Shown here in pieces: positions 7,202 through 25,032 of a stretch of DNA of 64,000 bases. Source of the stretch: an unicellular cyanobacterium SU2. GTDB lineage: Bacteria; Cyanobacteriota; Cyanobacteriia; Cyanobacteriales; Microcystaceae. The notes under the pieces were generated by a model, which ran no database searches, had not been told where the DNA came from, and saw nothing but the letters and a program-made list of their open reading frames with translations. The stretch spans positions 1 to 64,000 of the forward strand of contig NEED01000075.1 in NCBI GenBank assembly GCA_002110465.1, given 5' to 3'. Made by a program: the position numbers and the translations under genes. Position 1 is the first letter of the stretch. The number at the start of each line of letters is the position of its first letter.

Positions 7202-7445
7202 TTATTCAATTACAAAATAAAATCAAAACGATTAAAAATATTGTATGAAAAGTCCATAATAAAATTCAACATAATGTAAAGTATTATTGATGGCAATGAT
7301 TTTTTAAGGGTTTAATTTGTCCTAAACCGTACTTGGATTACTTATAATAAGAAAATAACCACTAAAATTCTGGAAACAAGAAACTAAGGAATTTAAAAAA
7401 ATTCAAGATCACTCAAAATAAATAAGAATCAACTAACTCACTACT
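7202..7445. other. Upstream region of the molybdopterin oxidoreductase gene
   Basis: Very AT-rich sequence presumed to hold divergent promoters for the small minus-strand frame and the oxidoreductase gene. I could not pick a convincing promoter or operator. Confidence 0.25.
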
Positions 7446-9680
7446 ATGCTAAACAAACCCCCAAAAATTTGGAACCCTGAACATTGGGCGAGTTGGAAAC
7501 CCTTTGGAATAGGGGAACAATATCCTAATAACTATTGGGAATTGGTGCGAACTATTTGGGAAAACCGGGATCAATTACCCTATGCTTGGAATATCCTCAA
7601 TAAAGGGGTTTGTGACGGTTGTGCCTTGGGAACCACAGGAATGAAAGACTGGACGGTTGAGGGGTTCCATTTATGTAATGTAAGGTTGCGACTGTTGCGC
7701 CTTAATACTATGGCTGCTTTAGATTCCGAATGTCTCAAGGATGTCTCTTTATTACCCAGTAAACGAAGTTCTCACCTACGGAAACTAGGAAGACTACCCT
7801 ACCCCATGAGACGGGATAAAGAAGACAAAGGATTCCGTCGTATTAGTTGGGATGAAGCTTTAGACTGTATTGCCAGCCATATTCATCAAACGAGTCCTGA
7901 TCGTACCGCCTATTATCTCACCAGTCGGGGAACGGTTAATGAAACCTATTATGTAGCACAAAAAGCTGTCCGTTCAATGGGGACAAATAATGTGGATAAT
8001 GCAGCGAGAATTTGTCACTCTCCCAGTACAACAGGACTCAAAACTTCCCTTGGTGTGGCTGCAACAACTTGTTCCTATAAAGACTGGATAGGAACTGATT
8101 TATTAGTATTTATTGGCTCAAATGTGGCTAATAATCAACCCGTGACGGTTAAATATTTGCACTGGGCTAAAAAAGCTGGAACTCGCATTGTAATGATTAA
8201 CAGTTATCGGGAACCAGGAATGGAAAGATATTGGGTTCCTTCTATTCCCGAAAGTGCTTTATTTGGAACCAAATTTGCAGAAGATTGTTTTTTAGTTAAT
8301 GTCGGGGGTGACATGGCTTTTTTGAATGGAACCCTAAAACATTTAATTGAAAATAATTGGATTGACAATCATTTTATTAACCAACATACCACTGGATTTA
8401 ATGACTTAAAAAATACCCTTGATAATCAACCTTGGAAAAAATTAGAACAGCTATCAGGGGCAACGCGGGAGCAAATGTATGAGTTTGCTAAACTGATTCA
8501 AAATGCCCAAAAAGCCGTTTTTGTTTGGAGTATGGGAATTACCCAACATCCTTGGGGAGAAGATAATGTTAAAGCTATTATTAATTTAGCCCTAACGAAA
8601 GGATTTGTCGGGCGTGAAGGATGTGGTTTAATGCCTATTAGGGGACATTCTGGCGTACAAGGAGGGGCGGAAATGGGCTGTTATGCCACGGTGTTTCCTG
8701 GAGGTAAACCTATTAATAATGAAAATGCCCAACAATTAAGCGATCTTTGGGGGGTTGAGGTTCCTACTAATAAAGGGTTAATTACATCAGAAATGGTTGA
8801 TGCTGCGGCTGATGGTAACTTAGATGTTTTAGTCTCAGTTGGAGGTAATTTTTTAGAAGTATTACCCGATCCAGACTATGTAGAAACTGCGTTAAAAAAA
8901 GTTCCTCTAAGAGTTCATGTTGATATTATTTGTTCACCACAAATGTTACTCGACCCCGCAGAAACTGTAATTTTATTACCAGCAACAACACGCTATGAAA
9001 TTCCTGGGGGAGTAACTGAAACCAATACAGAAAGACGGGTTATCTTTAGTCCCGAAATCCCTGGCCGTCGTATTGGAGAAGCACGACCTGAATGGCAATT
9101 TTTTCAAGAATTGGCGCAACGAGTTAATCCAAAATTAACCGATAAACTATCATTTGAAAATACGGAAGCTATTCGTCAAGAAATTGCTCAAGTCATTCCT
9201 CAATATGCAGGAATTCAACATTTAAAAGAAGCAGGAGATCAGTTTCAATATGGAGGTTCTTATCTGTGTTTTGGATGGAATTTTCCCACTCCTAATCATA
9301 AAGCTAAATTTATTTCTTTGTCTCCCCCAGAAACCCAATTACCTGATGGTTATTTTGCCGTAGCAACTCGTCGGGGTAAACAGTTTAATAGTATGGTACA
9401 AGAAGATAAAGATGCTATTACAGGGGCAGTCCGAGAAGCAATTTTAATTAGTCAATTAGATGCTGAAAAATTAGGGCTAAAACAGGGAGATACTGTCATT
9501 TTAAAAAATGATTCAGGGGAATATCAAGGGAAAATTTATATCGCCCCGATACAACCTAGTAACTTACAAATTCATTGGCCAGAAGGGAATATTTTATTAG
9601 ATAAAAAACAGCGATCGCCTGTTGCTGGAATTCCCAACTATAATGCTATTGTTTGGTTAGAAAAAGTTGCTTTTACCTGA
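7446..9680 (+). CDS. FdhF/YdeP-family molybdopterin oxidoreductase
   Basis: A 744-residue member of the molybdopterin oxidoreductase superfamily, related to formate dehydrogenase alpha subunits and to YdeP. Cys190 in ARICHSPSTTGL aligns with the selenocysteine/cysteine that binds molybdenum in FdhF, so this is a Cys-type enzyme. The N-terminus has only CDGC (Cys56, Cys59) rather than a clear four-cysteine iron-sulfur motif, which is typical of the YdeP branch. The C-terminal 130 residues form the cofactor-binding barrel domain (ATRRGKQFNSMVQ). The physiological substrate is unproven for this branch; formate is only a possibility. An fdhD gene about 3 kb downstream supports a molybdenum bis-MGD cofactor. 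No partner electron-transfer subunit is adjacent. Confidence 0.8.
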   Translation: MLNKPPKIWNPEHWASWKPFGIGEQYPNNYWELVRTIWENRDQLPYAWNILNKGVCDGCALGTTGMKDWTVEGFHLCNVRLRLLRLNTMAALDSECLKDVSLLPSKRSSHLRKLGRLPYPMRRDKEDKGFRRISWDEALDCIASHIHQTSPDRTAYYLTSRGTVNETYYVAQKAVRSMGTNNVDNAARICHSPSTTGLKTSLGVAATTCSYKDWIGTDLLVFIGSNVANNQPVTVKYLHWAKKAGTRIVMINSYREPGMERYWVPSIPESALFGTKFAEDCFLVNVGGDMAFLNGTLKHLIENNWIDNHFINQHTTGFNDLKNTLDNQPWKKLEQLSGATREQMYEFAKLIQNAQKAVFVWSMGITQHPWGEDNVKAIINLALTKGFVGREGCGLMPIRGHSGVQGGAEMGCYATVFPGGKPINNENAQQLSDLWGVEVPTNKGLITSEMVDAAADGNLDVLVSVGGNFLEVLPDPDYVETALKKVPLRVHVDIICSPQMLLDPAETVILLPATTRYEIPGGVTETNTERRVIFSPEIPGRRIGEARPEWQFFQELAQRVNPKLTDKLSFENTEAIRQEIAQVIPQYAGIQHLKEAGDQFQYGGSYLCFGWNFPTPNHKAKFISLSPPETQLPDGYFAVATRRGKQFNSMVQEDKDAITGAVREAILISQLDAEKLGLKQGDTVILKNDSGEYQGKIYIAPIQPSNLQIHWPEGNILLDKKQRSPVAGIPNYNAIVWLEKVAFT

Positions 9681-13648: not shown

Positions 13649-15145
13649 ATGGTGACTCAGATTAGCCGACCAGAAGAAAATATTAGTCAAGAGACAAAAC
13701 CCGCAACAGAAGAAGCCACCTTTCAATGGACAAAACAATGGTATCCTATCGCCGTTGTTGAATTTCTCGATTCGTCTCGCCCCCATGCTCTACAATTATT
13801 GGGGAAAGAATTAGTAATTTGGCGCGATCGCCAGAATCAATGGCGTTGTTTTGAGGATCGTTGTCCTCATCGGTTAGTTCCCCTATCAGAAGGAAGAGTT
13901 GAACCCGACGGGACTTTAATGTGTGCTTATCACGCTTGGCGTTTTGATGAGACAGGAAAATGTGTCAGTCTTCCCCAGTCTCAGGATAAGACAACAGAAA
14001 CGAAGAATATAGAAAATCCTAAATCTTGTGCGATCGCCTATCCCACTCAGGAACGTCAAGGATTAATCTGGGTTTGGCCAGAATCAGGATCTCAAGCTAA
14101 GATCGAAAGCCAGGCTAGAAAACCAAGAATTATCCCTGAACTTGAAGAAAATTCCGATAAAGTCGTTAAACTTTATTGGAGTGTACGGGACTTACCCTAT
14201 GGATGGGATTATTTCATGGAAAATGTCGCCGATCCTGCCCATGTTCCCGTCTCTCACCACGGAATGATGGGAAGTCGCTACAAAGATGCTAAATACTACG
14301 ACATGATTCGAGAAAAAGAAATATCGACTCAAGAAGGATTTGCTTTTTCTATCGAACCGGTTCCACCCACCATAGAAAAAACGATCCATGACTTTCAACC
14401 TCCCTGTCACATGAGAATTTCTTCAACCTTCAAAGATGGGGGCAAATTTATTCTAGCCTTATATGCCAGTCCCACCCGACCAGGATGGTGTCGTCAGATT
14501 GGTTGTCAAATATTGGTCAAAAATAATGAAGGAAAAGCCCCGAAAGGCATAGCATTTTTCGCTCTTCCTATGCCAACTTGGTTAGGTCATATTTTAAGTT
14601 CCTTATTTCTGCATCAAGATTTAGTCTTTCTTCACTACCAAGAAAAAATTATAGCCAAACAAGGAAAACAAGGGTGGTTATCCTCTGTCTACACCCCCAA
14701 CCCTCAAGATAAAATGGTAATTACCTTGCGTAAGTGGATAGAGAAACGAGCAGGAGGTGGAATTCCTTGGTCTACGGATGGGAGTCTTGAACTTCCCCCC
14801 CCCGAAACAGATAAACAAAAACTCTTTGATGTTTGGACAACCCATACTCAGAATTGTCGTGTGTGTCTTAATGCTCTAAAAAATATTAATCGCGCCACTA
14901 TCACCGCTTATGTCGGTGCTGCAATTTGTTTGATCATCGGAATTCTCCTAGACTCCCGCGCCGTTGCTCTAAAGCTCTCCACCCAAGCAATTGACCAGAC
15001 TCACTCCTTGCTAAGGGTAGCTCCTCCATTAGGTTTTTGGGTAGCGATCGCTGGAGCGGTTATCTTAGTAATTGTAGGCTACCTACTCAAAAAATTAAGC
15101 CGACTTTTCTATGTCTATGAATTTGAACATAGTCACAACAACTAG
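13649..15145 (+). CDS. PaO/Tic55-type Rieske oxygenase
   Basis: A 498-residue membrane-anchored Rieske non-heme iron oxygenase related to pheophorbide a oxygenase, chlorophyllide a oxygenase and Tic55. The Rieske cluster ligands are Cys72/His74 (CPH) and Cys92/His95 (CAYH). The mononuclear iron site is in ENVADPAHVPVSHHG near residues 190-205. A Cys-X-X-Cys (Cys403, Cys406), a redox motif typical of this subfamily, precedes two C-terminal transmembrane segments (about 420-440 and 465-485). It probably acts on a chlorophyll breakdown product or another tetrapyrrole or isoprenoid at the thylakoid, but the substrate cannot be read from sequence. No reductase gene is adjacent; ferredoxin is the usual donor. 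Confidence 0.8.
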   Translation: MVTQISRPEENISQETKPATEEATFQWTKQWYPIAVVEFLDSSRPHALQLLGKELVIWRDRQNQWRCFEDRCPHRLVPLSEGRVEPDGTLMCAYHAWRFDETGKCVSLPQSQDKTTETKNIENPKSCAIAYPTQERQGLIWVWPESGSQAKIESQARKPRIIPELEENSDKVVKLYWSVRDLPYGWDYFMENVADPAHVPVSHHGMMGSRYKDAKYYDMIREKEISTQEGFAFSIEPVPPTIEKTIHDFQPPCHMRISSTFKDGGKFILALYASPTRPGWCRQIGCQILVKNNEGKAPKGIAFFALPMPTWLGHILSSLFLHQDLVFLHYQEKIIAKQGKQGWLSSVYTPNPQDKMVITLRKWIEKRAGGGIPWSTDGSLELPPPETDKQKLFDVWTTHTQNCRVCLNALKNINRATITAYVGAAICLIIGILLDSRAVALKLSTQAIDQTHSLLRVAPPLGFWVAIAGAVILVIVGYLLKKLSRLFYVYEFEHSHNN

Positions 15146-15222
15146 AGGAGGAAACAAACTTTGACTATGATTTAAGTGTAAAATTGCTTAACATAAAGCA
15201 GCCAAGATAAACAACAAAATAT

Positions 15223-15487
15223 ACTCCTTGGGACACAGGGAGTCTGCCTCGGTAGTAGTTCTCTACTACGCCAGTAAGTGCCACTTAAGGTGAGCAAAAC
15301 CTGCGGAGGCTGAGTAAGACCAACACTAGAATTTTCTTGTAGAGGCATCAGCCGGTGAAAGAGGAAGCCTCGTACCTAAGCTTAGCGACGTGCGTAGGTA
15401 TGTCACCAATTACTGGTGTCGTCATAGACATCACTCGAAGGTCGAACGCTCCGAGTGGTTTAGTTCCAGCCTCCTGTGCTGGCTATG
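15223..15487 (+). ncRNA. Unidentified highly structured RNA upstream of the EF-G gene
   Basis: A non-coding stretch between the Rieske gene and fusA is unusually GC-rich for this window and packed with complementary arms: 15223-15227 with 15239-15243; a 7-bp hairpin 15252-15258/15263-15269 enclosed by 15246-15250/15306-15310; 15342-15346/15367-15371; 15373-15378/15395-15400; 15404-15408/15414-15418. A three-way junction has closing stem CATAG 15423-15427/CTATG 15483-15487 with branches 15432-15437/15452-15457 and 15466-15470/15478-15482. Two GCCTC and two GAGGC arms could swap partners. It ends 50 bases before the fusA start, so it is either a cis-regulatory leader or a separate RNA. It does not look like tmRNA, RNase P RNA, SRP RNA, a cobalamin riboswitch or a group I intron. 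Confidence 0.65.
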
Positions 15488-15537
15488 AAGTAAACGCCGA
15501 ATAAATACCATTTGTAAGACCTAAACCCTGTAGATCT

Positions 15538-17625
15538 ATGAAAAAAGACCTAACTCGTTACCGTAACATTGGCATCTTCGCCCACGTAGATGCGGGAAAA
15601 ACCACAACCACCGAAAGAATTCTCAAACTAACCGGAAAAATCCACAAAATCGGTGAGGTTCACGAAGGTGCGGCCACCACAGACTTCATGGAACAAGAGC
15701 AGGAGCGTGGGATCACCATTCAATCGGCTGCGACGAGTTGTTTCTGGAAAGATCACCAACTCAACATTATTGATACTCCAGGTCACGTTGACTTTACCAT
15801 TGAAGTGTATCGCTCCCTTAAAGTACTTGATGGAGGTATCGGGGTATTCTGTGGCTCAGGTGGTGTAGAACCTCAGTCCGAAACCAACTGGCGTTATGCT
15901 AACGACTCCAAAGTCGCTCGAATTATTTACGTTAATAAACTTGATCGCACGGGAGCCGATTTCTTTTCAGTTGTCAAGCAAGTCGAAGATATTCTAGCGG
16001 CTAAACCCCTAGTGATGGTGCTACCTATTGGGATAGAAAGCGAGTTCTGTGGGGTTGTTGATCTACTCACCGAAAAAGCTTGGATTTGGGATGATTCAGG
16101 CGATCCCATGAATTATGAAATTAAAGAAGTTCCCGCAGACATGGCTGATCAAGTTGCCTCCTACCGTGAACAGTTGATCGAGTCGGCAGTTGAACAAGAT
16201 GACGAGATGATGGAAAAATATCTCGAAGGGGAAGAACTGACCATCGACGAAATTAAGGCCTGTATTCGTAAAGGAACCCGTGAGCTTGCCTTTTTCCCCA
16301 CCTACTGCGGTTCATCCTTCAAAAACAAAGGGGTACAATTAGTTCTCGATGCTGTTGTAGACTATCTCCCCAACCCCACCGAACTTAAACCCCAACCAGA
16401 GGTTGATCTCGAAGGCAACGAAACAGGGACGTTTGCTGTTGTTGACCCCGAAAAACCCCTACGGGCTTTAGCCTTTAAGATCATGGATGATCGCTTTGGC
16501 GCGCTTACCTTCACCCGTGTGTATTCTGGAACCCTTTCCAAGGGAGATACTGTACTTAACACCGCCACAGGAAAAAGTGAACGGGTCAGCCGTTTGGTAG
16601 AAATGCACGCTAATTCCCGTGAAGAAATTGAAAGCGCCCAGGCTGGGGATATTGTGGCAATTGTAGGCATGAAAAACGTTCAAACAGGTCATACCCTCTG
16701 TGATCCTAAGTTTCCAGCTACTCTTGAACCGATGGTCTTTCCTGACCCCGTAATTTCTGTTTCTGTCTCTCCTAAGAAGAAAGGGGACAACGAAAAAATG
16801 GGAATGGCACTCAGCAAGATGGTTCAAGAAGACCCCTCCTTCTATGTGGAAACCGACAAAGAAAGCGGTGAAACCATCATGAAGGGAATGGGAGAACTTC
16901 ACCTCGATATTAAGGTAGACATCCTCAAGCGAACCCACGGGGTTGAAGTGGAAGTAGGAAAACCCCAGGTAGCTTACCGTGAGTCCATTACCAAGGTCAT
17001 TAACGACAGCTATACCCATAAGAAACAATCTGGAGGGTCAGGTCAATTCGGTAAGATCGACTATACAATCGAACCAGGAGAACCTGGTAGCGGTTTTTCC
17101 TTTGAGTCTAAGGTAACTGGGGGTAACGTTCCCAGAGAATTTTGGCCAGCGGTTCAAAAAGGATTTGAAAACAGTATTGATAAAGGGGTTTTAGCCGGTT
17201 TCCCTTGTGTGGATCTGAAGGTGACTCTAACCGATGGTTCATTCCACCCGGTTGACTCTTCGGCGATCGCTTTTGAAATTGCGGCACGGGCTGGTTATCG
17301 TCAGTCTATTCCCAAAGCAGGGCCTCAACTCCTCGAACCCATCATGAATGTGGATGTGTTCACTCCTGAAGATTATATGGGGGATGTGATCGGCGATATT
17401 AACCGTCGTCGGGGAATGATTAAGTCCCAAAATTCAACTCCTATGGGAGCGCGGATCAAGGCTGATGTTCCTTTAAGCGAGATGTTTGGCTATATTGGAG
17501 ACTTGCGTACCATGACCTCAGGTCGTGGTCAATTCTCTATGGAGTTCTCCCATTACGCTCCTTGTCCTAATAATGTCGCTGAAGAAGTGATCGCTGAAGT
17601 CAAAGAACGTCAAGCTGCTTCTTAA
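15538..17625 (+). CDS. fusA: Elongation factor G, second-type paralogue
   Basis: Ribosomal translocase GTPase of 695 residues. The G domain shows AHVDAGKTT (G1), RGITI (G2), DTPGH (G3) and NKLD (G4). Domains II to V follow, with the family motif GMGELHLDI near residue 455 and the C-terminal [13 protein letters not shown] and RRGMI segments. The N-terminus ([14 protein letters not shown]) and the lack of rpsL, rpsG or tuf neighbours suggest the stand-alone EF-G paralogue many cyanobacteria carry, not the str-operon copy. Whether it works in translocation, ribosome recycling or stress is not readable here. It is preceded by a structured RNA region and followed by a strong terminator. The symbol is used in the broad sense. 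Confidence 0.9.
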
Positions 17626-17654
17626 TTTTTAGTTAGATTTTTTATCTTGAATTT

Positions 17655-17689
17655 TTCCTGATCACTGCTATGTTGATCAGGAATTTTTT
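17655..17689 (+). terminator. Strong rho-independent terminator of the EF-G gene
   Basis: A perfect ten-base-pair stem, TTCCTGATCA at 17655-17664 with TGATCAGGAA at 17674-17683, has a nine-base loop and is followed by TTTTTT. It lies 30 bases after the EF-G stop. Confidence 0.85.
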
Positions 17690-17706
17690 GTGATTAACTA
17701 AAAAAT

Positions 17707-17743
17707 GGTGGGTTACGGTGGATGGGTAACTGCCTAACCCACC
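17707..17743. repeat. Inverted repeat with GGTGGGTTA arms
   Basis: GGTGGGTTA at 17707-17715 is perfectly complementary to TAACCCACC at 17735-17743. This GGTGGGTTA/TAACCCACC pattern is a common intergenic repeat in cyanobacteria. It lies between the EF-G terminator and a convergent gene and is probably a small non-coding mobile repeat. Confidence 0.6.
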
Positions 17744-17827
17744 CTACGGTACGGTATTTTTGATCAAGTAAATTTCAAAAAAACTGTAGGACGTATTAAT
17801 GTAGGGTAATACGCAAAAAAACTATTT

Positions 17828-18304
17828 TTATAGATAAGTCCAACTAGAAAACGTTGCTGCTTGACCTAATTTTTGGTTGTTAGAAGCAATTACATTCCAG
17901 ATAATGGCATTTTCAATTAAAAACTGCTTTCTTGTGCGAGAAACACGAACACCACGATAGTTTTCTATAAAGCCTTTATTTTGGGCTTCTTCTAACATTT
18001 GACTCCGTTGCTTTAACTCCTCAGAATTGAGAGAATTCACAGTTTTTTTAGACGGGGTTTGGGTAAATTCTTCCCAACTCATTTCCCAAAGATTAAGGGC
18101 AGTTTGATTACCATAATTTAAAATTGGATTAATTTCTTTTCCATGGGAAACAATAACCATCGGAGCAAAAAAAAGTGCTTCAGCTTCCTTTTCTGGATTA
18201 CTATTTCTTTCAATAAGTTGCCTTCCTAATAGCTGATTATAACTGTTTAATAATAGTTGACTCCACTCGATTATTGCTGGTTTTATCCAAATGTCTTGGT
18301 TCAT
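17828..18304 (-). CDS. MEKHLA-domain (PAS-like) protein
   Basis: A soluble protein of about 158 residues matching the MEKHLA domain, a PAS-related fold also found at the C-terminus of plant HD-ZIP III regulators. Visible family features are the APMVIVSHG strand, the NYGNQTALNLWEMSWEEFT segment and the RVSRTRKQFLIENAIIWNV strand. The ligand and role are unknown. The open frame extends upstream, but the ATG at 18304 gives the expected family N-terminus MNQDIW. No partner gene is adjacent; a dispersed repeat begins about 34 bases upstream. Confidence 0.75.
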   Translation of the reverse strand: MNQDIWIKPAIIEWSQLLLNSYNQLLGRQLIERNSNPEKEAEALFFAPMVIVSHGKEINPILNYGNQTALNLWEMSWEEFTQTPSKKTVNSLNSEELKQRSQMLEEAQNKGFIENYRGVRVSRTRKQFLIENAIIWNVIASNNQKLGQAATFSSWTYL

Positions 18305-18337
18305 TTTTCTCCTATCATGTATAATTAAAACGAACAC

Positions 18338-18415
18338 TTAAAAGTTTGTAGTAAGGGCTTTAGCCCTCATATTATAATAAGCCTTATTGTCTATCAAGGA
18401 CTTACTATAAACTTG
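18338..18415 (+). repeat. Dispersed GGGCTTTAGCCC repeat with terminal inverted repeats, copy 2
   Basis: The left end, AAAGTTTGTAGTAAGG followed by GCTTTAGCCCT, and the right end, AGGACTTACTATAAACTT (18398-18415), are imperfect inverted copies flanking about 30 AT-rich bases. The layout is MITE-like. The left end matches the other dispersed copies in this window. It lies in the 5' region of the MEKHLA gene. Confidence 0.6.
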
Positions 18416-18532
18416 AGGTTATTTTTGCCTACCTACTTACTATTTAAGCTCTAAATTATTAACACAAGAAAGGCGTAGATATTAATAAATTCATTTTTTT
18501 TAGCATTGCTCCATAAAACTTTGCAAGATAAT

Positions 18533-18563
18533 TTGTCTGCAAATTCTAGACTTCATTTATAAT
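18533..18563 (+). promoter_or_regulatory. Possible promoter of the grr locus
   Basis: A consensus -10 TATAAT at 18558-18563 is preceded by TTGTCT at 18533-18538, with a 19-base spacer that is longer than ideal. It lies about 48 bases before the grrP start and would place transcription start near 18570. It was picked by eye in AT-rich DNA. Confidence 0.4.
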
Positions 18564-18610
18564 AATTAGGAAACATGATACTCTAAAACCAGCGATTTGC
18601 AGGAATATTA

Positions 18611-19519
18611 ATGTTAAAAAAATTTTCTTTAACCTTGATCAGTCTCCTTCTAGTTTTGATCGCAGCTAAGACAAGTAAAGCAGAAACAGTCATAGAAAAA
18701 GTAGCTAGAACAGGAGTATTAACCGTTGGTTCTCGCATTGATTTAATTCCCTATTCCTATATTGATGACCAGGGAAACTTAGATGGTTATTCTTTACAAG
18801 TTCTTAACCTAATTAGAGAAGAAATTGAAACCCAATTAGACAAACCAGTCAAATTACAAATTATTGAAGCTGAAGGAGTCACCGAAAGAATTCCTAAATT
18901 AATAACAGGAGAAATTGATATTAGTTGTGACACAGTTTTTACATGGGGACGGGATAAATTTGTTGATTTTTCTGTTAGTTATAGTGTTTCTGGTATTAGA
19001 TTATTAGTGCCGAAAAATAGTTCTTTAGGATCAGGAGAATCTTTAGAAAATAAACGGATTGGGATTATTCCCCATACCATTACTGAAGATACTATAAAAT
19101 TAGTTCAACCCAAAGCAAATTTAGTGGCGATGAAGGGTATTAATGAAGCAATAGAAGCACTGAAAGCAGGACAAGTAGACGCGATCGCAGGAGATAGTTT
19201 AATCTTAGAAGGGGAACGTCAAAGACTCGATGGTGATGATTATAAATTAGTTCCCAAAGACCCCTATGCAAGGTATGGCGTAGCTTGTATGGTTCCTGAA
19301 AATAACTCGACCTTTTTAAATTTAGTGAACTATTCTATCGTTAAATTAATGCAAGGCTATTTAGTTGGGGAGAAAGAATACCAAGAAATGGTTAATCGGT
19401 GGATTGGACCAGAAGGAATTGTTCAGATTACCAATGTTGATTTAATTAAAGACTTTTTTAATTACACGATTATGAGTCGAGAACAAATTCCCTTATCCCA
19501 AGAATCTGCTAATCAATAA
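18611..19519 (+). CDS. grrP: GrrP-type orphan periplasmic solute-binding protein
   Basis: A 302-residue extracytoplasmic amino-acid-type binding protein (SBP_bac_3 fold). A signal peptide with a long hydrophobic core (LTLISLLLVLIAAKTSKA) is followed by VIEKVARTGVLTVG, YSYIDDQGNLDGYSLQVL, GEIDISCDTVFTWGRDKFVDFS and GQVDAIAGDSLIL, the expected order of family motifs. No permease or ATPase gene is nearby, which fits the orphan binding proteins called GrrP that accompany glycine-rich radical-SAM-modified peptides. An AGGA site precedes the ATG. The first precursor gene follows after 42 bases on the same strand. It may bind or present the modified peptide, but this is inference. Confidence 0.8.
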   Translation: MLKKFSLTLISLLLVLIAAKTSKAETVIEKVARTGVLTVGSRIDLIPYSYIDDQGNLDGYSLQVLNLIREEIETQLDKPVKLQIIEAEGVTERIPKLITGEIDISCDTVFTWGRDKFVDFSVSYSVSGIRLLVPKNSSLGSGESLENKRIGIIPHTITEDTIKLVQPKANLVAMKGINEAIEALKAGQVDAIAGDSLILEGERQRLDGDDYKLVPKDPYARYGVACMVPENNSTFLNLVNYSIVKLMQGYLVGEKEYQEMVNRWIGPEGIVQITNVDLIKDFFNYTIMSREQIPLSQESANQ

Positions 19520-19561
19520 AAGTTTTTAGATTGAGTTAAGTTTTAGTCGGAGGAAACAAGT

Positions 19562-19981
19562 TTGAAAGTTACAACCACCAGTTGGCTGAGTTTTTTAGTC
19601 ACTTTATCTGCCTTAAATATTTCCGCGTCTCATGCTATTAATAATCCGTCTGCAAGCGAAAAATCCAACTCATTAGAAAGTCGTTTATCTCGGATTTCAA
19701 ATACCTTAAAATTGAAAGAAAATCAGTTACCTAATTCCCCTTTAAATCAACCCGATAATGTTGCTAGGGGTTGGGGAGATGGTAGAGGTAGTAGAGGCTT
19801 TGTTAATACTAACCGTGGCGGTTGGGGAAATGGAAATAGAGGGGGAGGGTTTGCTAATGTCAATCCCTGGCGTAATGGTTGGGCTGATCAGGGTGGTTTT
19901 CGTAACCATGGCGGTGGATTTGCCAACCGTGGTGGCGGCGGAGGGTTTGCTAACCGTGGTGGTGGATTTGTTAACCGCTAA
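19562..19981 (+). CDS. grrA: GrrA-family precursor peptide 1, predicted cyclophane RiPP
   Basis: A 139-residue precursor. It starts with TTG behind a good GGAGG site. Residues 1-25 are a signal peptide ending SHA. Residues about 38-60 form a conserved leader segment (SLESRLSRISNTLKLKENQL). From about residue 66 the core is glycine-rich and holds ten aromatic-X-Asn/Asp triplets in order: WGD, FVN, WGN, FAN, WRN, WAD, FRN, FAN, FAN, FVN. Such triplets are the known substrate pattern for three-residue cyclophane formation, in which the aromatic ring is bonded to the beta-carbon of the third residue. The adjacent maturase should modify it. The mature, exported product is uncharacterised. Confidence 0.85.
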   Translation: MKVTTTSWLSFLVTLSALNISASHAINNPSASEKSNSLESRLSRISNTLKLKENQLPNSPLNQPDNVARGWGDGRGSRGFVNTNRGGWGNGNRGGGFANVNPWRNGWADQGGFRNHGGGFANRGGGGGFANRGGGFVNR

Positions 19982-20049
19982 TTCATTATTAACCATGAGA
20001 TAATTGGAAGCAATAATTATTATCTAAATAAAGTTTTAGAGGAACGAAT

Positions 20050-20505
20050 TTGAAAATTAAAACCACAAGTTGGCTGAGTTTTTTAGTTACTTTATCTGCG
20101 TTGAATATTCACGCTTCTTATGCTATTGATAGTTCTTCTGCAACAGCAACATCTCAATCATTAGAAAGTCGTTTATCTCGGATTTCGAGTACCTTAAAAT
20201 TGAAAGAAAATCAATTACCTAATTCCCCTTTAAAACCCGATAATGTTGCTATTGGTTGGGGAGATGGTAGAGGGAGTAGAGGCTTTGTTAATACTAATCG
20301 TGGCGGTTGGGGAAATGGAAATAGAGGGGGAGGGTTTGTTAATGTCAATCCCTGGCGTAATGGTTGGCGTGATTACGGTGGTTTTCGTAACTATGGTGGC
20401 GGTGGTGGTGGATTTGTTAACCGTGGTGGTGGTTTTCGTAACTACGGTGGCGGCGGTGGTTTTCGTAACCGTGGTGGTGGATTTGTTAACCGTCGTTGGC
20501 GTTAA
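20050..20505 (+). CDS. grrA: GrrA-family precursor peptide 2, tandem paralogue
   Basis: A 151-residue tandem paralogue of the preceding precursor, again starting with TTG behind an AGAGGA site. The signal peptide (SFLVTLSALNIHASYA) and leader segment (SLESRLSRISSTLKLKENQL) are almost identical to copy 1. The start of the core is also conserved, through the WGD, FVN and WGN triplets. The tail has diverged, with eleven triplets (WGD, FVN, WGN, FVN, WRN, WRD, FRN, FVN, FRN, FRN, FVN), three Tyr-Gly-Gly sites absent from copy 1, longer Gly runs and an arginine-rich end (NRRWR). The pattern indicates recent duplication followed by repeat slippage in the core. Confidence 0.85.
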   Translation: MKIKTTSWLSFLVTLSALNIHASYAIDSSSATATSQSLESRLSRISSTLKLKENQLPNSPLKPDNVAIGWGDGRGSRGFVNTNRGGWGNGNRGGGFVNVNPWRNGWRDYGGFRNYGGGGGGFVNRGGGFRNYGGGGGFRNRGGGFVNRRWR

Positions 20506-20547
20506 TTTTTGATAATTGTTTTGATAATTAATTAATAATAAAAGTAA

Positions 20548-21741
20548 ATGATAACTACTCCCTCTCAACTTTCTAACTCCTCTACAGAAAAATCACCTAA
20601 TCTAGATAACTTTGGTCCAATTAATTTAGTAGTAATTCAACCGACTTCCTTTTGTAACCTGAATTGTGATTACTGTTATTTACCAAATCGACAGTTAAAA
20701 AATCGCTTATCTTTAAACTTAATTGATCCCATTTTTAAAACAATTTTTACCAGTCCTTTTTGTACTTCAGATTTTAGTATTTGTTGGCACGCAGGGGAAC
20801 CCCTAGCGGTTCCTATTGCCTTCTATAAGTCTGCTTTTGAAGCTATTAATAAAGCCTCTGAAAAATACAATAGTAATGAGGTTTATTTTGATCTTTCTTT
20901 TCAAACCAATGGGACTTTGATAACCCAAGCTTGGTGTGATTTATTTAAGCAATACCCTGTTCATGTTGGTGTGAGTTTAGATGGACCAGAATTTCTCCAT
21001 AACATTCATCGTAAAACTCGTAATGGAAAAGGAAGTTATGAACTAACAATGCGAGGACTCCGTTATTTACAAAATAATAATATCCCCCATAGTTTGATTT
21101 CAGTTATTACAGAAGATTCTCTTGATTATCCTGACGAAATCTTTAACTTTTTTATGGAAAATGGGATTAAAGATGTAGGATTTAATATGGAGGAAACAGA
21201 AGGAATCAATAAAAATTCATCCTTAGAGGGGAAAGGAATTAAAGAAAAATATAGAAATTTCATGAAGCATTTTTGGGAGTTAATTGCTCAAAATAATGGA
21301 AAATTTAGATTAAGAGAATTTGAGTTTATTGGCAGTTTGATTTATACAGGCGATCGCATGATCAATACCGAAATGAATCAAGCCTTTCGTATCCTCAATA
21401 TTGATCATCAGGGTAATTTTTCTACTTTTGATCCAGAATTATTATCCATTCAAACAGAACTCTACGGAGATTTTATTTTAGGCAATGTTTTAACCGATAC
21501 CTTAGAATCAGTTTGTTATAGTGAAAAGTTCCAAAAAATTCATCAAGATATGACCGCAGGGGTTAATCTTTGTCGTCAAACTTGTGAGTATTTTGGGTTG
21601 TGTGGCGGTGGCGCAGGAAGTAATAAATATTGGGAAAATGGAACTTTTAATTCTGGTCAAACAATCGCTTGTAATTATCGGATTAAAATGATCACTGATG
21701 TCGTAGTAGAAGCCTTAGAAAATTCTCTGGGTTTAGCTTAA
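20548..21741 (+). CDS. grrM: Radical SAM/SPASM peptide maturase, GrrM type
   Basis: A 397-residue radical SAM enzyme with a SPASM-type C-terminus. The cluster motif is CNLNCDYC (Cys36, Cys40, Cys43; CX3CX2C), followed by WHAGEPL and SLDGP, as in anaerobic sulfatase-maturase-like peptide modifiers. C-terminal cysteines for auxiliary clusters are Cys342, Cys346, Cys352 and Cys375 within LCRQTCEYFGLCGGG and IACNYRI. Placement 42 bases after two glycine-rich precursors makes it the cyclophane-forming maturase known as GrrM. It would abstract a beta-hydrogen from the third residue of each aromatic-X-Asn/Asp triplet and couple it to the ring, before export. How many sites are modified is unknown. 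Confidence 0.9.
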   Translation: MITTPSQLSNSSTEKSPNLDNFGPINLVVIQPTSFCNLNCDYCYLPNRQLKNRLSLNLIDPIFKTIFTSPFCTSDFSICWHAGEPLAVPIAFYKSAFEAINKASEKYNSNEVYFDLSFQTNGTLITQAWCDLFKQYPVHVGVSLDGPEFLHNIHRKTRNGKGSYELTMRGLRYLQNNNIPHSLISVITEDSLDYPDEIFNFFMENGIKDVGFNMEETEGINKNSSLEGKGIKEKYRNFMKHFWELIAQNNGKFRLREFEFIGSLIYTGDRMINTEMNQAFRILNIDHQGNFSTFDPELLSIQTELYGDFILGNVLTDTLESVCYSEKFQKIHQDMTAGVNLCRQTCEYFGLCGGGAGSNKYWENGTFNSGQTIACNYRIKMITDVVVEALENSLGLA

Positions 21742-21839
21742 CGCCTATCATCCCACTATATATCGAAGGTCAGATTCGGGTTGATAGGCGGTCAATATTT
21801 CAACCCTAGAAAACTTGAGTTCGCTTACTTGAGTTGTGC

Positions 21840-22153
21840 TTAAAAGTCTAATAAACTGCCATTACCGACGACTAATTGATTGTCATTAAGAGCAAAGCGT
21901 CCTTCTGCATCATAGAGGAGGGTGTAGGTATGAGTGTCTCCTGCATCAGCATTAGTGGTACTTAGGTCAGCAATAATAGTGCCATTGGGACTGTTTTCAT
22001 TTACCTTATTACTACTTAGCTGGGCTAGCTCAACCACAGCATCAAAGCGACTCCGCAAAAGACCACATAACTCTCTCCTGCTTGGGTATTGCCATTGGAG
22101 TCGGCAGTAAATGCCCCAATAATCAGGTCATCAATGCCATCCCCAAAATCAAT
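21840..22153 (-). pseudogene. Frameshifted fragment of an FG-GAP/cadherin-repeat surface protein
   Basis: On the minus strand, 22153 downward reads GDGIDDLIIGAF, then ADSNGNTQAGESYVVF, a classic FG-GAP (integrin-type) repeat. Around 22065 the match shifts to another frame and continues SRFDAVVELAQL, then VNENSPNGTIIADLSTT and DTHTYTLL, followed by FALNDNQLVV, a cadherin-like repeat of the type found in giant cyanobacterial calcium-binding surface proteins. It ends at a stop at 21840. A stop also lies directly upstream, so both ends are lost and a one-base frameshift separates the two domains. Confidence 0.7.
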
Positions 22154-22633
22154 CTAGTTTCTAAACTCATTCTAATATATAAGATTTTCTTATATTTCAA
22201 GGTGTGGTGTGTTGAATAAACCCCATACAATAGTCTAAGTAAAGGTTTTGACCTTTTTATAGTTGTTTCAAATAAGAATGAGACGAGAGAACCTTTACTA
22301 TTCCGGTGTTCGAGGCTAAAAAAGTGTCTCACTTTAAATTGAAATGACTATAATTGTCAACAAAAGACAAAAATATAAAATATATTGGTCGATTTTATTA
22401 CACGGGGGAAGCGATCGCGCCACAAACCCAAACAATCGATAGTCGAAAAACAAATAGATGGAAGGAATTGCTTAAGAAATCAAAAAAATCAAAAAACCCT
22501 GACAATTTCAGTAACTTTTAAGATGGAATTCTCTAATTTGTATTGTATGATTCAAAGTAATGGAGAAAAGTACTTCAGAGAAAGTGGTGAGGAGTATCGA
22601 CATCTTCAGTATTAAGAATCGAAGGAAAGCAGT
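22154..22633. other. Long AT-rich upstream region of the GH57 gene
   Basis: This stretch of 480 bases contains no supported gene. A TTG-started plus-strand frame at 22385-22615 is basic and asparagine/lysine-rich, with nothing family-like, so I treat it as chance. An AAGGTTTTGACCTTTTT segment near 22231-22247 is a small palindrome. It probably holds the promoter and a long 5' leader for the GH57 gene, which has an AAGGAAAG site just before its ATG. Confidence 0.35.
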
Positions 22634-24124
22634 ATGATTGCAACAGCACCATCGTCCAATGCAGAAAATATACAAAGAATAAAGCCCGAATTACCTCCTA
22701 TTAGCGGTTGGGAAAAAGAAATCGCCTCAGTAGTTCAACACAACGACCCAGTCTTTTTACCCACCACTAACATCACCTTAGACAATGTTAAAGCAGGGTT
22801 TGCTTGCGCCCTTCATATGCACCAACCCACAATTCCCGCGGGACACAATGGTGAATTGGTTTGTAATCTCCAACATATGTTTGAAAACCAAGGAGTAGGA
22901 GACAACCACAACGCGGGAGTCTTTGCTTGGTGTTATCGCCGTATGGGTGAATTTATCCCTGAAATCGTTAATAATGGCGGTAATCCCAGAATTATGCTGG
23001 ACTATTCTGGGAATCTTCTCTGGGGATTCGAGCAAATGCAGCGCGATGATATTCTTAATGACCTCAAGCGCATCACCTGTGACCCTCAATATCAACCCTA
23101 TGTAGAATGGTTAGGGACGATGTGGAGTCATGCGGTGGCCCCTTCAACGCCCATTCCTGACCTTAAACTCCAGATTCAAGCGTGGCAACACCATTTTGCC
23201 TCAATTTTCGGTTATGATGCCCTCAAGCGGGTGAAAGGTTTCTCCCCACCGGAAATGCACCTTCCCAACAACCCCGATACCCTTTTTGAATACATTAAAG
23301 CTCTCAAAGAGTGTGGTTATCGTTGGTTATTGGTACAAGAAGACTCGGTAGAACGCTTAGATGGAGCGAGTTTACACCAAAATGGAGATGATAAATACGT
23401 TCCTAACCGTTTAGTGGCGCGTAATTCTCACGGGGAAACCATCAGCATCACCGCCTTGATTAAAACCCAAGGGTCTGATACTAAATTAGTAGCCCAAATG
23501 CAGCCCTACCATGAAGCCAAATCACGGGGACGGCAAAAAATTGGGGATGTAGAAGTTCCCTGTTGTGTTTCCCAAATTGCTGACGGGGAAAACGGCGGAG
23601 TCATGATGAATGAGTTCCCCAATGGATTTAATCCTGTTTGGGATCAAATCAAAGGAGAAGGGGATGTGGTTGGCCTCAACGGAACCGAATATATTGAACT
23701 CCTTGAAGCGGCTGGCGTTAACCCTGATGATTATCCCGTTTGTCAGGCGGTGGGACAACACAAAATCTGGAACAAAGTTGATCTCAATAATGTTACCCCA
23801 GAAGCCGTTGCTAAAGCGGTTGAAGAGTTACAAGCCACTGATCATCAGTTTCATATGGATGGGGCTTCTTGGACTAATGATTTAAGCTGGGTTTCTGGCT
23901 ATGAGAACGTCTTAGAACCCATGAATCAACTCAGTGCTGATTTTCATCGGAAATTCGATTCTTTAGTGCAACAAGATTCTGGAGTGACTAAAACCCCTGA
24001 ATATCAGGAAGCGCTACTCTACACGATGTTAGTAGAAACCAGTTGTTTCCGCTATTGGGGACAGGGAACTTGGACTGATTACGCCCGCGAACTTTATAAT
24101 CGCGGTGAAGGATTAGTTAAGTAA
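22634..24124 (+). CDS. Glycoside hydrolase family 57-like protein
   Basis: A 496-residue cytoplasmic protein with the GH57 N-terminal pattern: FACALHMHQPTIPAG (the family HQP motif), LDYSGNLLWGFEQM and FSPPEMHLPN. GH57 enzymes act on alpha-glucans (amylase, branching or 4-alpha-glucanotransferase activities), so a role in glycogen metabolism is plausible. The exact reaction is not assignable, and conserved cyanobacterial members are often annotated only as GH57 proteins. The start is supported by a nearby purine-rich site. It stands alone, and a truncated transposon gene lies 128 bases downstream. Confidence 0.7.
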   Translation: MIATAPSSNAENIQRIKPELPPISGWEKEIASVVQHNDPVFLPTTNITLDNVKAGFACALHMHQPTIPAGHNGELVCNLQHMFENQGVGDNHNAGVFAWCYRRMGEFIPEIVNNGGNPRIMLDYSGNLLWGFEQMQRDDILNDLKRITCDPQYQPYVEWLGTMWSHAVAPSTPIPDLKLQIQAWQHHFASIFGYDALKRVKGFSPPEMHLPNNPDTLFEYIKALKECGYRWLLVQEDSVERLDGASLHQNGDDKYVPNRLVARNSHGETISITALIKTQGSDTKLVAQMQPYHEAKSRGRQKIGDVEVPCCVSQIADGENGGVMMNEFPNGFNPVWDQIKGEGDVVGLNGTEYIELLEAAGVNPDDYPVCQAVGQHKIWNKVDLNNVTPEAVAKAVEELQATDHQFHMDGASWTNDLSWVSGYENVLEPMNQLSADFHRKFDSLVQQDSGVTKTPEYQEALLYTMLVETSCFRYWGQGTWTDYARELYNRGEGLVK

Positions 24125-24252
24125 TTCAAGTTCTCGTGAATTGAAAAAATGAAGCGATCGCTCTCTAGAAATAGGGGGCGATCGTTATAAGTGATCTACG
24201 AAAGACAATCAAATCCGTTCTCATTTTTAAGCTTACAGTCAAAAGTTACCGT

Positions 24253-25032
24253 ATGAGACGATCCTGCCTGTCGGGTGATCGCTCCAAACAAATTTGTCAG
24301 CACAAAGATGATGATTGGTATGTACATATTCAACTAAAATCCGATGCTCCGAAGCCTATCAAATCAGATAAGGTGATTGGGGTTGATTTTGGTAGAAGAG
24401 ACATAGCAGTTACCTCAACTAATAAATCATGGTCAGGAAAGGAGATTCAAGAAAAACGAGATAAATTTAATCGTGTCAGAGCTTCTTTGCAACAAAAAGC
24501 ATCCCAAGGCACAAGATCAACAAGGCGTAGGTGTCGTCAGATTTTGAAACGGCTATCAGGGAAAGAAAGAAGATATCAGGCATGGTTAAACCATAATATA
24601 TCTAAAGCAATCATCAACGAAGCTAAACAAACTCAATCCTTTGTATCTATTGAAGACCTAACAGGAATTCGAGAACGAACTAATCAAAAACCTAGAAATA
24701 AAACTGAACGAAGACGTTCTAATTCATGGGCTTTTTATCAGTTAAGAACTTTTCTAGAATATAAAGGAATTAAAGAAGGGATTGAGGTAATAGCGATTAA
24801 CCCTAGATATACTAGCCAGACTTGTCATTGTTATCTACATATAGGACTTAGAAACAATAAGTCTTTTAAGTGCAGTAATAAAGCTTGTGGTTGGATTGGA
24901 GATGCGGATCTAAATGGTTCGTTGATGATAGCTTTAGTGGGGCTGAGTGTAAGGCAGCCTGGAGGCAACCATTTATTGTCTTGTGCGATAGATGGAGGGC
25001 TACAGAAAGCCCTCGACTTTAGCGTAGCGTAG
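24253..25032 (+). pseudogene. tnpB: 5'-truncated IS200/IS605-type TnpB nuclease
   Basis: A 259-residue frame covering the RuvC half of TnpB, the RNA-guided nuclease of IS200/IS605 elements. All three catalytic acids are visible: Asp45 in IGVDFGRRD, Glu134 in VSIEDLTGIRE and Asp219 in GDADLNGS. The zinc-finger region is altered: the first pair is CHC (TSQTCHCYLHIG) instead of C-X2-C, while the second is C-X4-C. Roughly the first 130-150 residues (recognition and wedge regions) are missing, and the apparent ATG start lies in unrelated sequence. No TnpA is adjacent. It is probably an inactive remnant, although RuvC chemistry could remain. Confidence 0.8.

Follow-up and report, generated by a model that had tools for sequence, protein, structure and literature searches.

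Cyclophane-forming radical S-adenosylmethionine (SAM) enzymes have been studied for their chemistry, and the job of many of the natural products that they make is still open. The question raised by the locus described here is why such an enzyme and its glycine-rich precursors are accompanied by a solute-binding protein. The locus, named grr, lies in a 64,000-nucleotide stretch of DNA of the unicellular cyanobacterium SU2 (assembly GCA_002110465.1, contig NEED01000075.1, positions 1 to 64,000), referred to below as the window. It consists of four genes on the + strand, encoding the binding protein GrrP, the precursors GrrA1 and GrrA2 and the maturase GrrM. Comparison with related loci revealed that GrrP stays with the precursor at sites from which the enzyme is gone. 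Among the phyla sampled, only Cyanobacteria showed it together with GrrA. The explanation that best covers the data as a whole, namely a GRRM-type triceptide locus in which GrrP acts as a partner after export, is judged to have an even chance of being correct, and the narrower proposal, that GrrP is a dedicated post-export partner of GrrA, is put forward tentatively.

The grr locus and its predicted rings

The genes grrP (18611..19519; 302 amino acids), grrA1 (19562..19981; 139 amino acids, TTG start), grrA2 (20050..20505; 151 amino acids, TTG start) and grrM (20548..21741; 397 amino acids) are separated by spacers of 42, 68 and 42 bases. All four proteins scored over the curated NCBIfam cut-offs: GrrP, an orphan family-3 solute-binding protein, reached 330.7 bits against TIGR04262 (cut-off 190), the GrrA/OscA1 precursors GrrA1 and GrrA2 82.3 and 76.6 bits against TIGR04260 (cut-off 31), and GrrM, a radical SAM/SPASM cyclophane-forming maturase (GrrM/OscB), 632 bits against TIGR04261 (cut-off 310). 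Pfam likewise assigned GrrP to the family-3 solute-binding proteins and a radical SAM domain to GrrM. The original prediction, made from the letters alone, had described four same-strand genes with spacers of 42-68 bases forming a complete grr locus; the open reading frames (ORFs) lie where it placed them, and the family assignment is practically certain. It had also held the class to be already described, which is correct, as the families are named in NCBIfam, those of the enzyme and the precursor after the OscB/OscA triceptide systems. The window locus therefore belongs to a named class, and nothing of substance sets it apart from the NCBIfam GRRM system (TIGR04260, TIGR04261 and TIGR04262), all three parts of which stand in one gene row here.

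The remaining puzzle is GrrP. In agreement with the claim of a binding protein without a transporter, inspection of ORFs from 13649 to 25029 did not reveal one. The role of the accompanying protein had rightly been called unexplained, and a search limited to open-licence literature found no paper discussing GrrP in this sense. The data presented here concern its linkage, its pocket and its distribution.

The ring chemistry is better anchored. According to the review PMC11002830, OscB (IPR026357) forms three-residue cyclophanes in which C7 of Trp is linked to the beta-carbon of an Asn or Asp residue and C4 of Phe to that of Asn. The cores of grrA1 (19772..19978) and grrA2 (20257..20502) hold 10 and 11 W-x-N/D or F-x-N motifs, respectively. 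Beyond residue 60, Asn or Asp stands at +2 of 10 of the 11 aromatic residues (W, F, Y, H) of GrrA1 and of 11 of the 14 of GrrA2, against shuffled means of 2.2 and 2.7, so the predicted richness in aromatic-X-Asn/Asp triplets was borne out. One His and three Tyr account for the exceptions, and every Trp or Phe beyond residue 60 that has a +2 residue fits.

The same grammar was found across the phylum. Among 51 GrrA (ORFs of fetched phylum loci, some of them fragments), there are 438 W/F/Y beyond residue 60, of which 384 are followed at +2 by Asn or Asp (0.877), and at seven other offsets tried this fraction was 0.037 to 0.209. The +2 residue is Asn in 150 and Asp in 54 of 217 cases for Trp, Asn in 179 of 199 for Phe, and Asn once in 22 for Tyr, outside the core. 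In 32 GrrA of named loci, Trp is followed at +2 by Asn (68) or Asp (18) in a total of 90 cases, Phe by Asn (145) or Asp (10) in 167, and none of 44 Tyr by either. Since this grammar (W-x-N/D, F-x-N) matches the OscB links reviewed in PMC11002830, three-residue-cyclophane chemistry is to be expected, as the original prediction had it. Family membership and motif grammar together make it very probable that the window GrrM would form such rings. In contrast to OscB/OscA, the window locus carries two precursors, for which 10 and 11 rings are predicted from sequence. The CX3CX2C motif of GrrM (Cys36, Cys40 and Cys43; 20653..20676) and its presumed auxiliary-cluster cysteines (Cys342, 346, 352 and 375; 21571..21672), all named beforehand, are invariant in nine aligned GrrM.

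Leaders, termini and motif numbers were compared in GrrA of at least 95 amino acids. An ExRL-type leader pattern, represented in grrA1 by E-S-R-L-S-R-I (19676..19696) and presumably recognised by the enzyme, is present in 70 of 87, and a hydrophobic 12-mer near the N-terminus in 84 of 87. Judged by eye and by hydrophobicity, these N-terminal segments would be Sec-type signals, and export of GrrA through them is likely. Precursors carry 0 to 12 ring motifs (median 8; 78 GrrA), the last of which lies within two residues of the C-terminal end in 72 of 78. The idea that GrrP shapes this end was weakened, because loci without GrrP (e.g. L199, L203, L205, L208 and L212) share it, their precursors ending with a ring motif plus an aromatic residue.

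The following course of events is proposed. GrrM would read the conserved leader segment of GrrA and join Trp (to Asn or Asp) and Phe (to Asn) of the core to the beta-carbon two positions on, which predicts approximately 10 rings on GrrA1 and 11 on GrrA2. The ringed glycine-rich peptides would then leave the cell by means of the N-terminal signal sequence. GrrP, whose partner in the periplasm would be GrrA and not GrrM, may act after export and hold, deliver or sense the product, a fragment of it or a free end through a pocket gripping an amino-acid head group.

Linkage of GrrP to GrrA in Cyanobacteria

In a draw of 292 genomes representing the phylum, GrrM, GrrP and GrrA were found over cut-off in 39, 47 and 37 genomes, respectively. 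GrrP over cut-off is present in 36 of the 37 GrrA genomes, and the 37th (G286) has a GrrP fragment. GrrM over cut-off accompanies GrrA in 35 of the 37, the exceptions being G286 and G095, the latter with no GrrM match at an E-value of 0.001. Four genomes (G042, G111, G284 and G191) carry GrrM with no GrrA over cut-off; no GrrP was found around these four GrrMs or around the second GrrM of G280, two of the stretches (L127 and L129) being near contig ends. Near some of the GrrA-less GrrMs, other small ORFs with W/Y-x-D/N motifs were seen (L125, L129).

Together with the window, 40 GrrA clusters were read off the locus maps of the draw; weak sub-cut-off GrrA of G091, G097 and G237 were not taken as clusters, and the lone GrrA of G205, although weak, was counted because a GrrA profile made for this analysis matched it. 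GrrP adjoins GrrA in 37 of the 40. The clusters that also contain GrrM number 28, if one includes G145, where it is 3.9 kb away, G286, where it is in fragments, and G093, where contig ends split the cluster; contig ends also prevent a decision for G133. A GrrP-GrrA pair without GrrM is found in eight clusters (G014, G080, G095, G097, G235, G237, G253 and the second of G272), GrrM-GrrA without GrrP in none of the 40, and a lone GrrA in three (that of G213 and additional copies in G201 and G205, of which the G205 copy is below cut-off). In the comparison of grrP and grrM conservation that had been proposed earlier, GrrP tracks GrrA beyond GrrM in these clusters. Its sequence co-diverges more strongly with GrrM, as set out below.

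Among the named loci L169-L196, GrrP lies in the stretch of 24 of 26 GrrA-bearing cyanobacterial loci, once as a fragment (L195); for L169, one of the other two, a GrrP-GrrA pair was found elsewhere in the genome, on a different contig. The locus with the fragment, that of Crocosphaera watsonii WH 8501, looks broken, with GrrM in two ORFs. In neighbouring GrrP/GrrA pairs, counted over the draw and the named loci together and not de-duplicated, 53 have GrrP upstream on the same strand, six are divergent and none is convergent, and two further same-strand pairs are A-to-P junctions of tandem arrays. The tandem order P-A-P-A-M was observed in L183 and L185. In Leptolyngbya sp. PCC 7375 (L186) a GrrM-like enzyme stands with small ORFs (7349-7675 and 8365-8703) of W-x-N/D/S repeats that have no glycine-rich core, and no GrrP or GrrA over cut-off was found in this genome.

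Fold, pocket and constraint of GrrP

The window GrrP begins with a signal peptide of approximately residues 1-24 (by eye). Its AlphaFold2 model, which is confident (predicted local distance difference test, pLDDT, 88.9), resembles glutamate/aspartate-binding proteins and sensors built on those as the best solved matches: GltI/DEBP (2ia4 and 2vha; Foldseek TMt 0.80-0.81, 26% identity) and the sensors 8ovn and 8ovo. R114 and D195 align with the DEBP head-group residues Arg97 and Asp182, and equivalents of Arg24 and Arg75 are also present in the window protein. Unlike GltI/DEBP, GrrP has no transporter beside it in the window and a side-chain subsite that is variable in its linked set, and against the GltI family NF008063 it reached 86.9 bits, short of the cut-off of 375.

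The pocket was compared in 62 linked GrrPs, which include L179 and L181 (GrrP in the locus, GrrA not adjacent) and the L130 fragment; two broken-GrrP fragments of G268 (L140) were left out of this and the later analyses, and the 98-amino-acid L195 fragment was left out of the tree and the pocket counts. Numbering was anchored on S72 of DEBP, as given in PMC10942590. Of the 62, 56 retain the equivalent of Arg97 and 54 that of Asp182; in column entropy these two positions rank at the 7th and 8th percentile. Side-chain-subsite positions 24, 27, 72, 75, 140 and 164 fall at the 71st-89th percentile, and the GltI-type carboxylate pocket is not kept (of the 62, 14 have an Arg where DEBP has Arg24, 12 one in place of Arg75 and none a His in place of His164). 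A protein with these amino-acid head-group residues would be better suited to the free end of a chain or to some small ligand than to a long polymer, such as the exported poly-cyclophane whose capture by GrrP the original prediction had considered.

In a quick tree without bootstrap, 60 of the 62 linked GrrPs form one group (SH-like approximate likelihood ratio test, SH-aLRT, 95). A separate group of 11 (SH-aLRT 99) comes from 11 genomes with GrrP and no GrrA over cut-off; all six subsite positions are invariant in it, its members being close kin (median entropy 0.44). In the other 13 unlinked rows positions 24 and 140 are invariant and 75 nearly so, while 27, 72 and 164 vary (37th to 62nd percentile). 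The separate group (L136-L138, L144, L145 and L163-L168, i.e. all P rows except L158-L162) is mostly of family f5, and no shared partner was noticed for its 11 members. A GrrP paralogue adjoins an ORF of 1981 amino acids in the window's genome and in G143 (L131 6389-13440; L133 25-7059).

The ratio of nonsynonymous to synonymous substitution rates (dN/dS) of GrrP was 0.04-0.30 in 13 comparisons spread over 12 overlapping close genome pairs, and in these pairs it was 0.04-0.16 for GrrM and 0.05-0.51 for GrrA. As judged from these ratios, GrrA-linked GrrPs are under purifying selection. A lipobox-like pattern occurs in 11 of the 62 linked GrrPs, nine of them plausible by reading, and such proteins would be tethered to the membrane. 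The head-group clamp, the variable subsite and the linkage to GrrA make the role of GrrP easier to test.

Competing explanations and neighbouring genes

Several observations weigh against a dedicated GrrP-GrrA partnership. Five of the eight GrrM-less clusters belong to genus g3 and two to genus g2, which leaves approximately three independent events. In the pocket, eight of the 62 linked GrrPs have lost the Asp and six, a fragment among them, the Arg; the head-group site also shows no conservation at positions 90 and 92. GrrP adjoins GrrM, and not GrrA, in L179 and L181, both of which are outside the group of 60. Over 44 loci, each with a single P, a single M and a GrrA that was not short, and with L130, L169, L176, L181 and L195 excluded, the distances of GrrP correlated with those of GrrM at 0.933 and with those of GrrA at 0.879, and partial Mantel values were 0.72 with GrrM given GrrA and 0.39 with GrrA given GrrM. 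Co-divergence thus points to GrrM at least as much as to GrrA, and leans to GrrM.

Loci of GrrM and GrrA without GrrP had been named in advance as evidence against the proposal if frequent. The outcome was divided. None was met with in the draw. Within Cyanobacteria, there is one such locus, in a metagenome-assembled genome (MAG; L176), with no GrrP in the 495 bases available upstream and an integrase-like fragment there (by eye); elsewhere this genome encodes a GrrP over cut-off whose match covers profile positions 1-240 only, as does that of the separate group. Outside the phylum such loci do occur, so that there, on a small sample, the evidence named in advance does speak against the proposal: in the alphaproteobacterial L203 and L205 both GrrM and GrrA score over cut-off, and neither genome contains a GrrP that does. 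With three loci (L203, L205 and L176) lacking it, GrrP cannot be a general requirement for GrrA maturation. The co-divergence and the alphaproteobacterial loci slightly lower the confidence in GrrP as a dedicated partner of GrrA.

No GrrP match was found in the 50 non-cyanobacterial loci among 80 fetched, many of which have only distant radical SAM relatives and whose flanks reach up to 6 kb. In 14 non-cyanobacterial genomes searched whole, many of them MAGs whose completeness is not given, GrrA was over cut-off in four and GrrP in none; weaker GrrP-profile matches appeared in six of these 14 genomes and in seven of 14 control genomes. Two Reyranella MAGs (L223 and L231) have GrrA over cut-off and a GrrM cut at contig ends, not scored against TIGR04261. 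The window locus has GrrA in common with these, and both GrrM and GrrA with L203 and L205, GrrP over cut-off being on the window side only. As no GrrP over cut-off stands beside non-cyanobacterial GrrM/GrrA, GrrP looks like a cyanobacterial addition in this small sample. In L199 and L217 a GrrM over cut-off goes with precursors for which NCBIfam has no matching model, and small ORFs of near-continuous W-x-D/N/K triplets stand beside GrrM-like enzymes in Oligoflexaceae (L206 925-1275) and Neptunitalea (L199 5638-5979).

Next after the post-export partnership ranks an ordinary orphan amino-acid binder, which would serve a distant ABC permease or scavenging and be co-transcribed with grrA through shared conditions. 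This is unlikely, though a real contender: the window's genome has 10 SBP_bac_3 matches against two matches to polar amino-acid permeases (TIGR01726) over cut-off, so that orphan binding proteins are common in it, the nearest folds and sequences of GrrP are glutamate/aspartate and other amino-acid binders, and its two head-group residues are mostly kept. It does not account well for a GrrP-GrrA linkage that outlives the loss or relocation of GrrM and also occurs in tandem, nor for the high variability of the six subsite positions in the linked set. ABC-ATPase-like ORFs do lie within 6 kb in five genomes, but they are scattered, non-adjacent and of different kinds.

Binding proteins of the GrrP fold also serve as sensor domains. 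GrrP could accordingly bind an amino acid or peptide fragment outside the cell and signal to a membrane partner controlling grrA, or the GrrA product could itself be the signal. BvgS is among the GrrP matches, and the upstream region is common to GrrP and GrrA in the six divergent pairs. Such a role is nevertheless improbable, as NtcA, Pho half-site, Fur-like and LexA patterns upstream of the 62 linked GrrP genes did not exceed the shuffle range, Rfam gave no match in the window between 17500 and 23000, and in the 16 neighbour clusters other than P, A or M (of 20 present in at least five genomes) no kinase or regulator was seen by eye, no family search being made.

A bolder version of the partnership, to which we give a low probability, would make GrrP and GrrA a modular cognate receptor-ligand cassette, in which GrrP grips an amino-acid-like head group from its own GrrA product. 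This head group, on a chain end or a ring-bearing fragment from proteolysis, would be free, and the variable subsite would provide lineage-specific recognition. If it were true, the ringed glycine-rich peptide would be a captured extracellular signal or matrix unit. Finally, a hitch-hiker with a decaying pocket, suggested by the variable subsite and by one head-group residue missing in 14 of the 62 linked rows (one a fragment), is disfavoured as very improbable in view of the low dN/dS in all 13 GrrP comparisons and the presence of GrrP in nearly all GrrA clusters of the draw.

Conserved neighbours were considered as a clue to function and set aside, as they reflect shared synteny and indicate no function. 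Clusters present in 10 to 12 genomes are nearly all in the marine Synechococcus group; from sequence reading, they are presumably rpiA-like, protease-like and translation-factor-like. The grr loci of marine Synechococcus type (L107-L119 and L191-L196) sit among these neighbours, and this setting suggests vertical inheritance rather than a mobile cluster. A promoter and terminator scan gave 13 promoter-like sites against 12.7 in shuffles and no terminator.

The neighbours of the window locus are a Rieske-type oxygenase (matches below cut-offs), an EF-G-like ORF (by eye) and a MEKHLA gene. Downstream of grrM lies an ORF of 496 amino acids with no family match, as does a TnpB/OrfB_IS605-like transposase ORF (24253-25032; PF07282, PF01385) of 259 amino acids, perhaps incomplete. 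On the - strand, an ORF fragment (21840-22058) that resembles, by eye, a cadherin-like or calcium-binding repeat from a large surface protein is possibly a gene remnant beside the grr locus.

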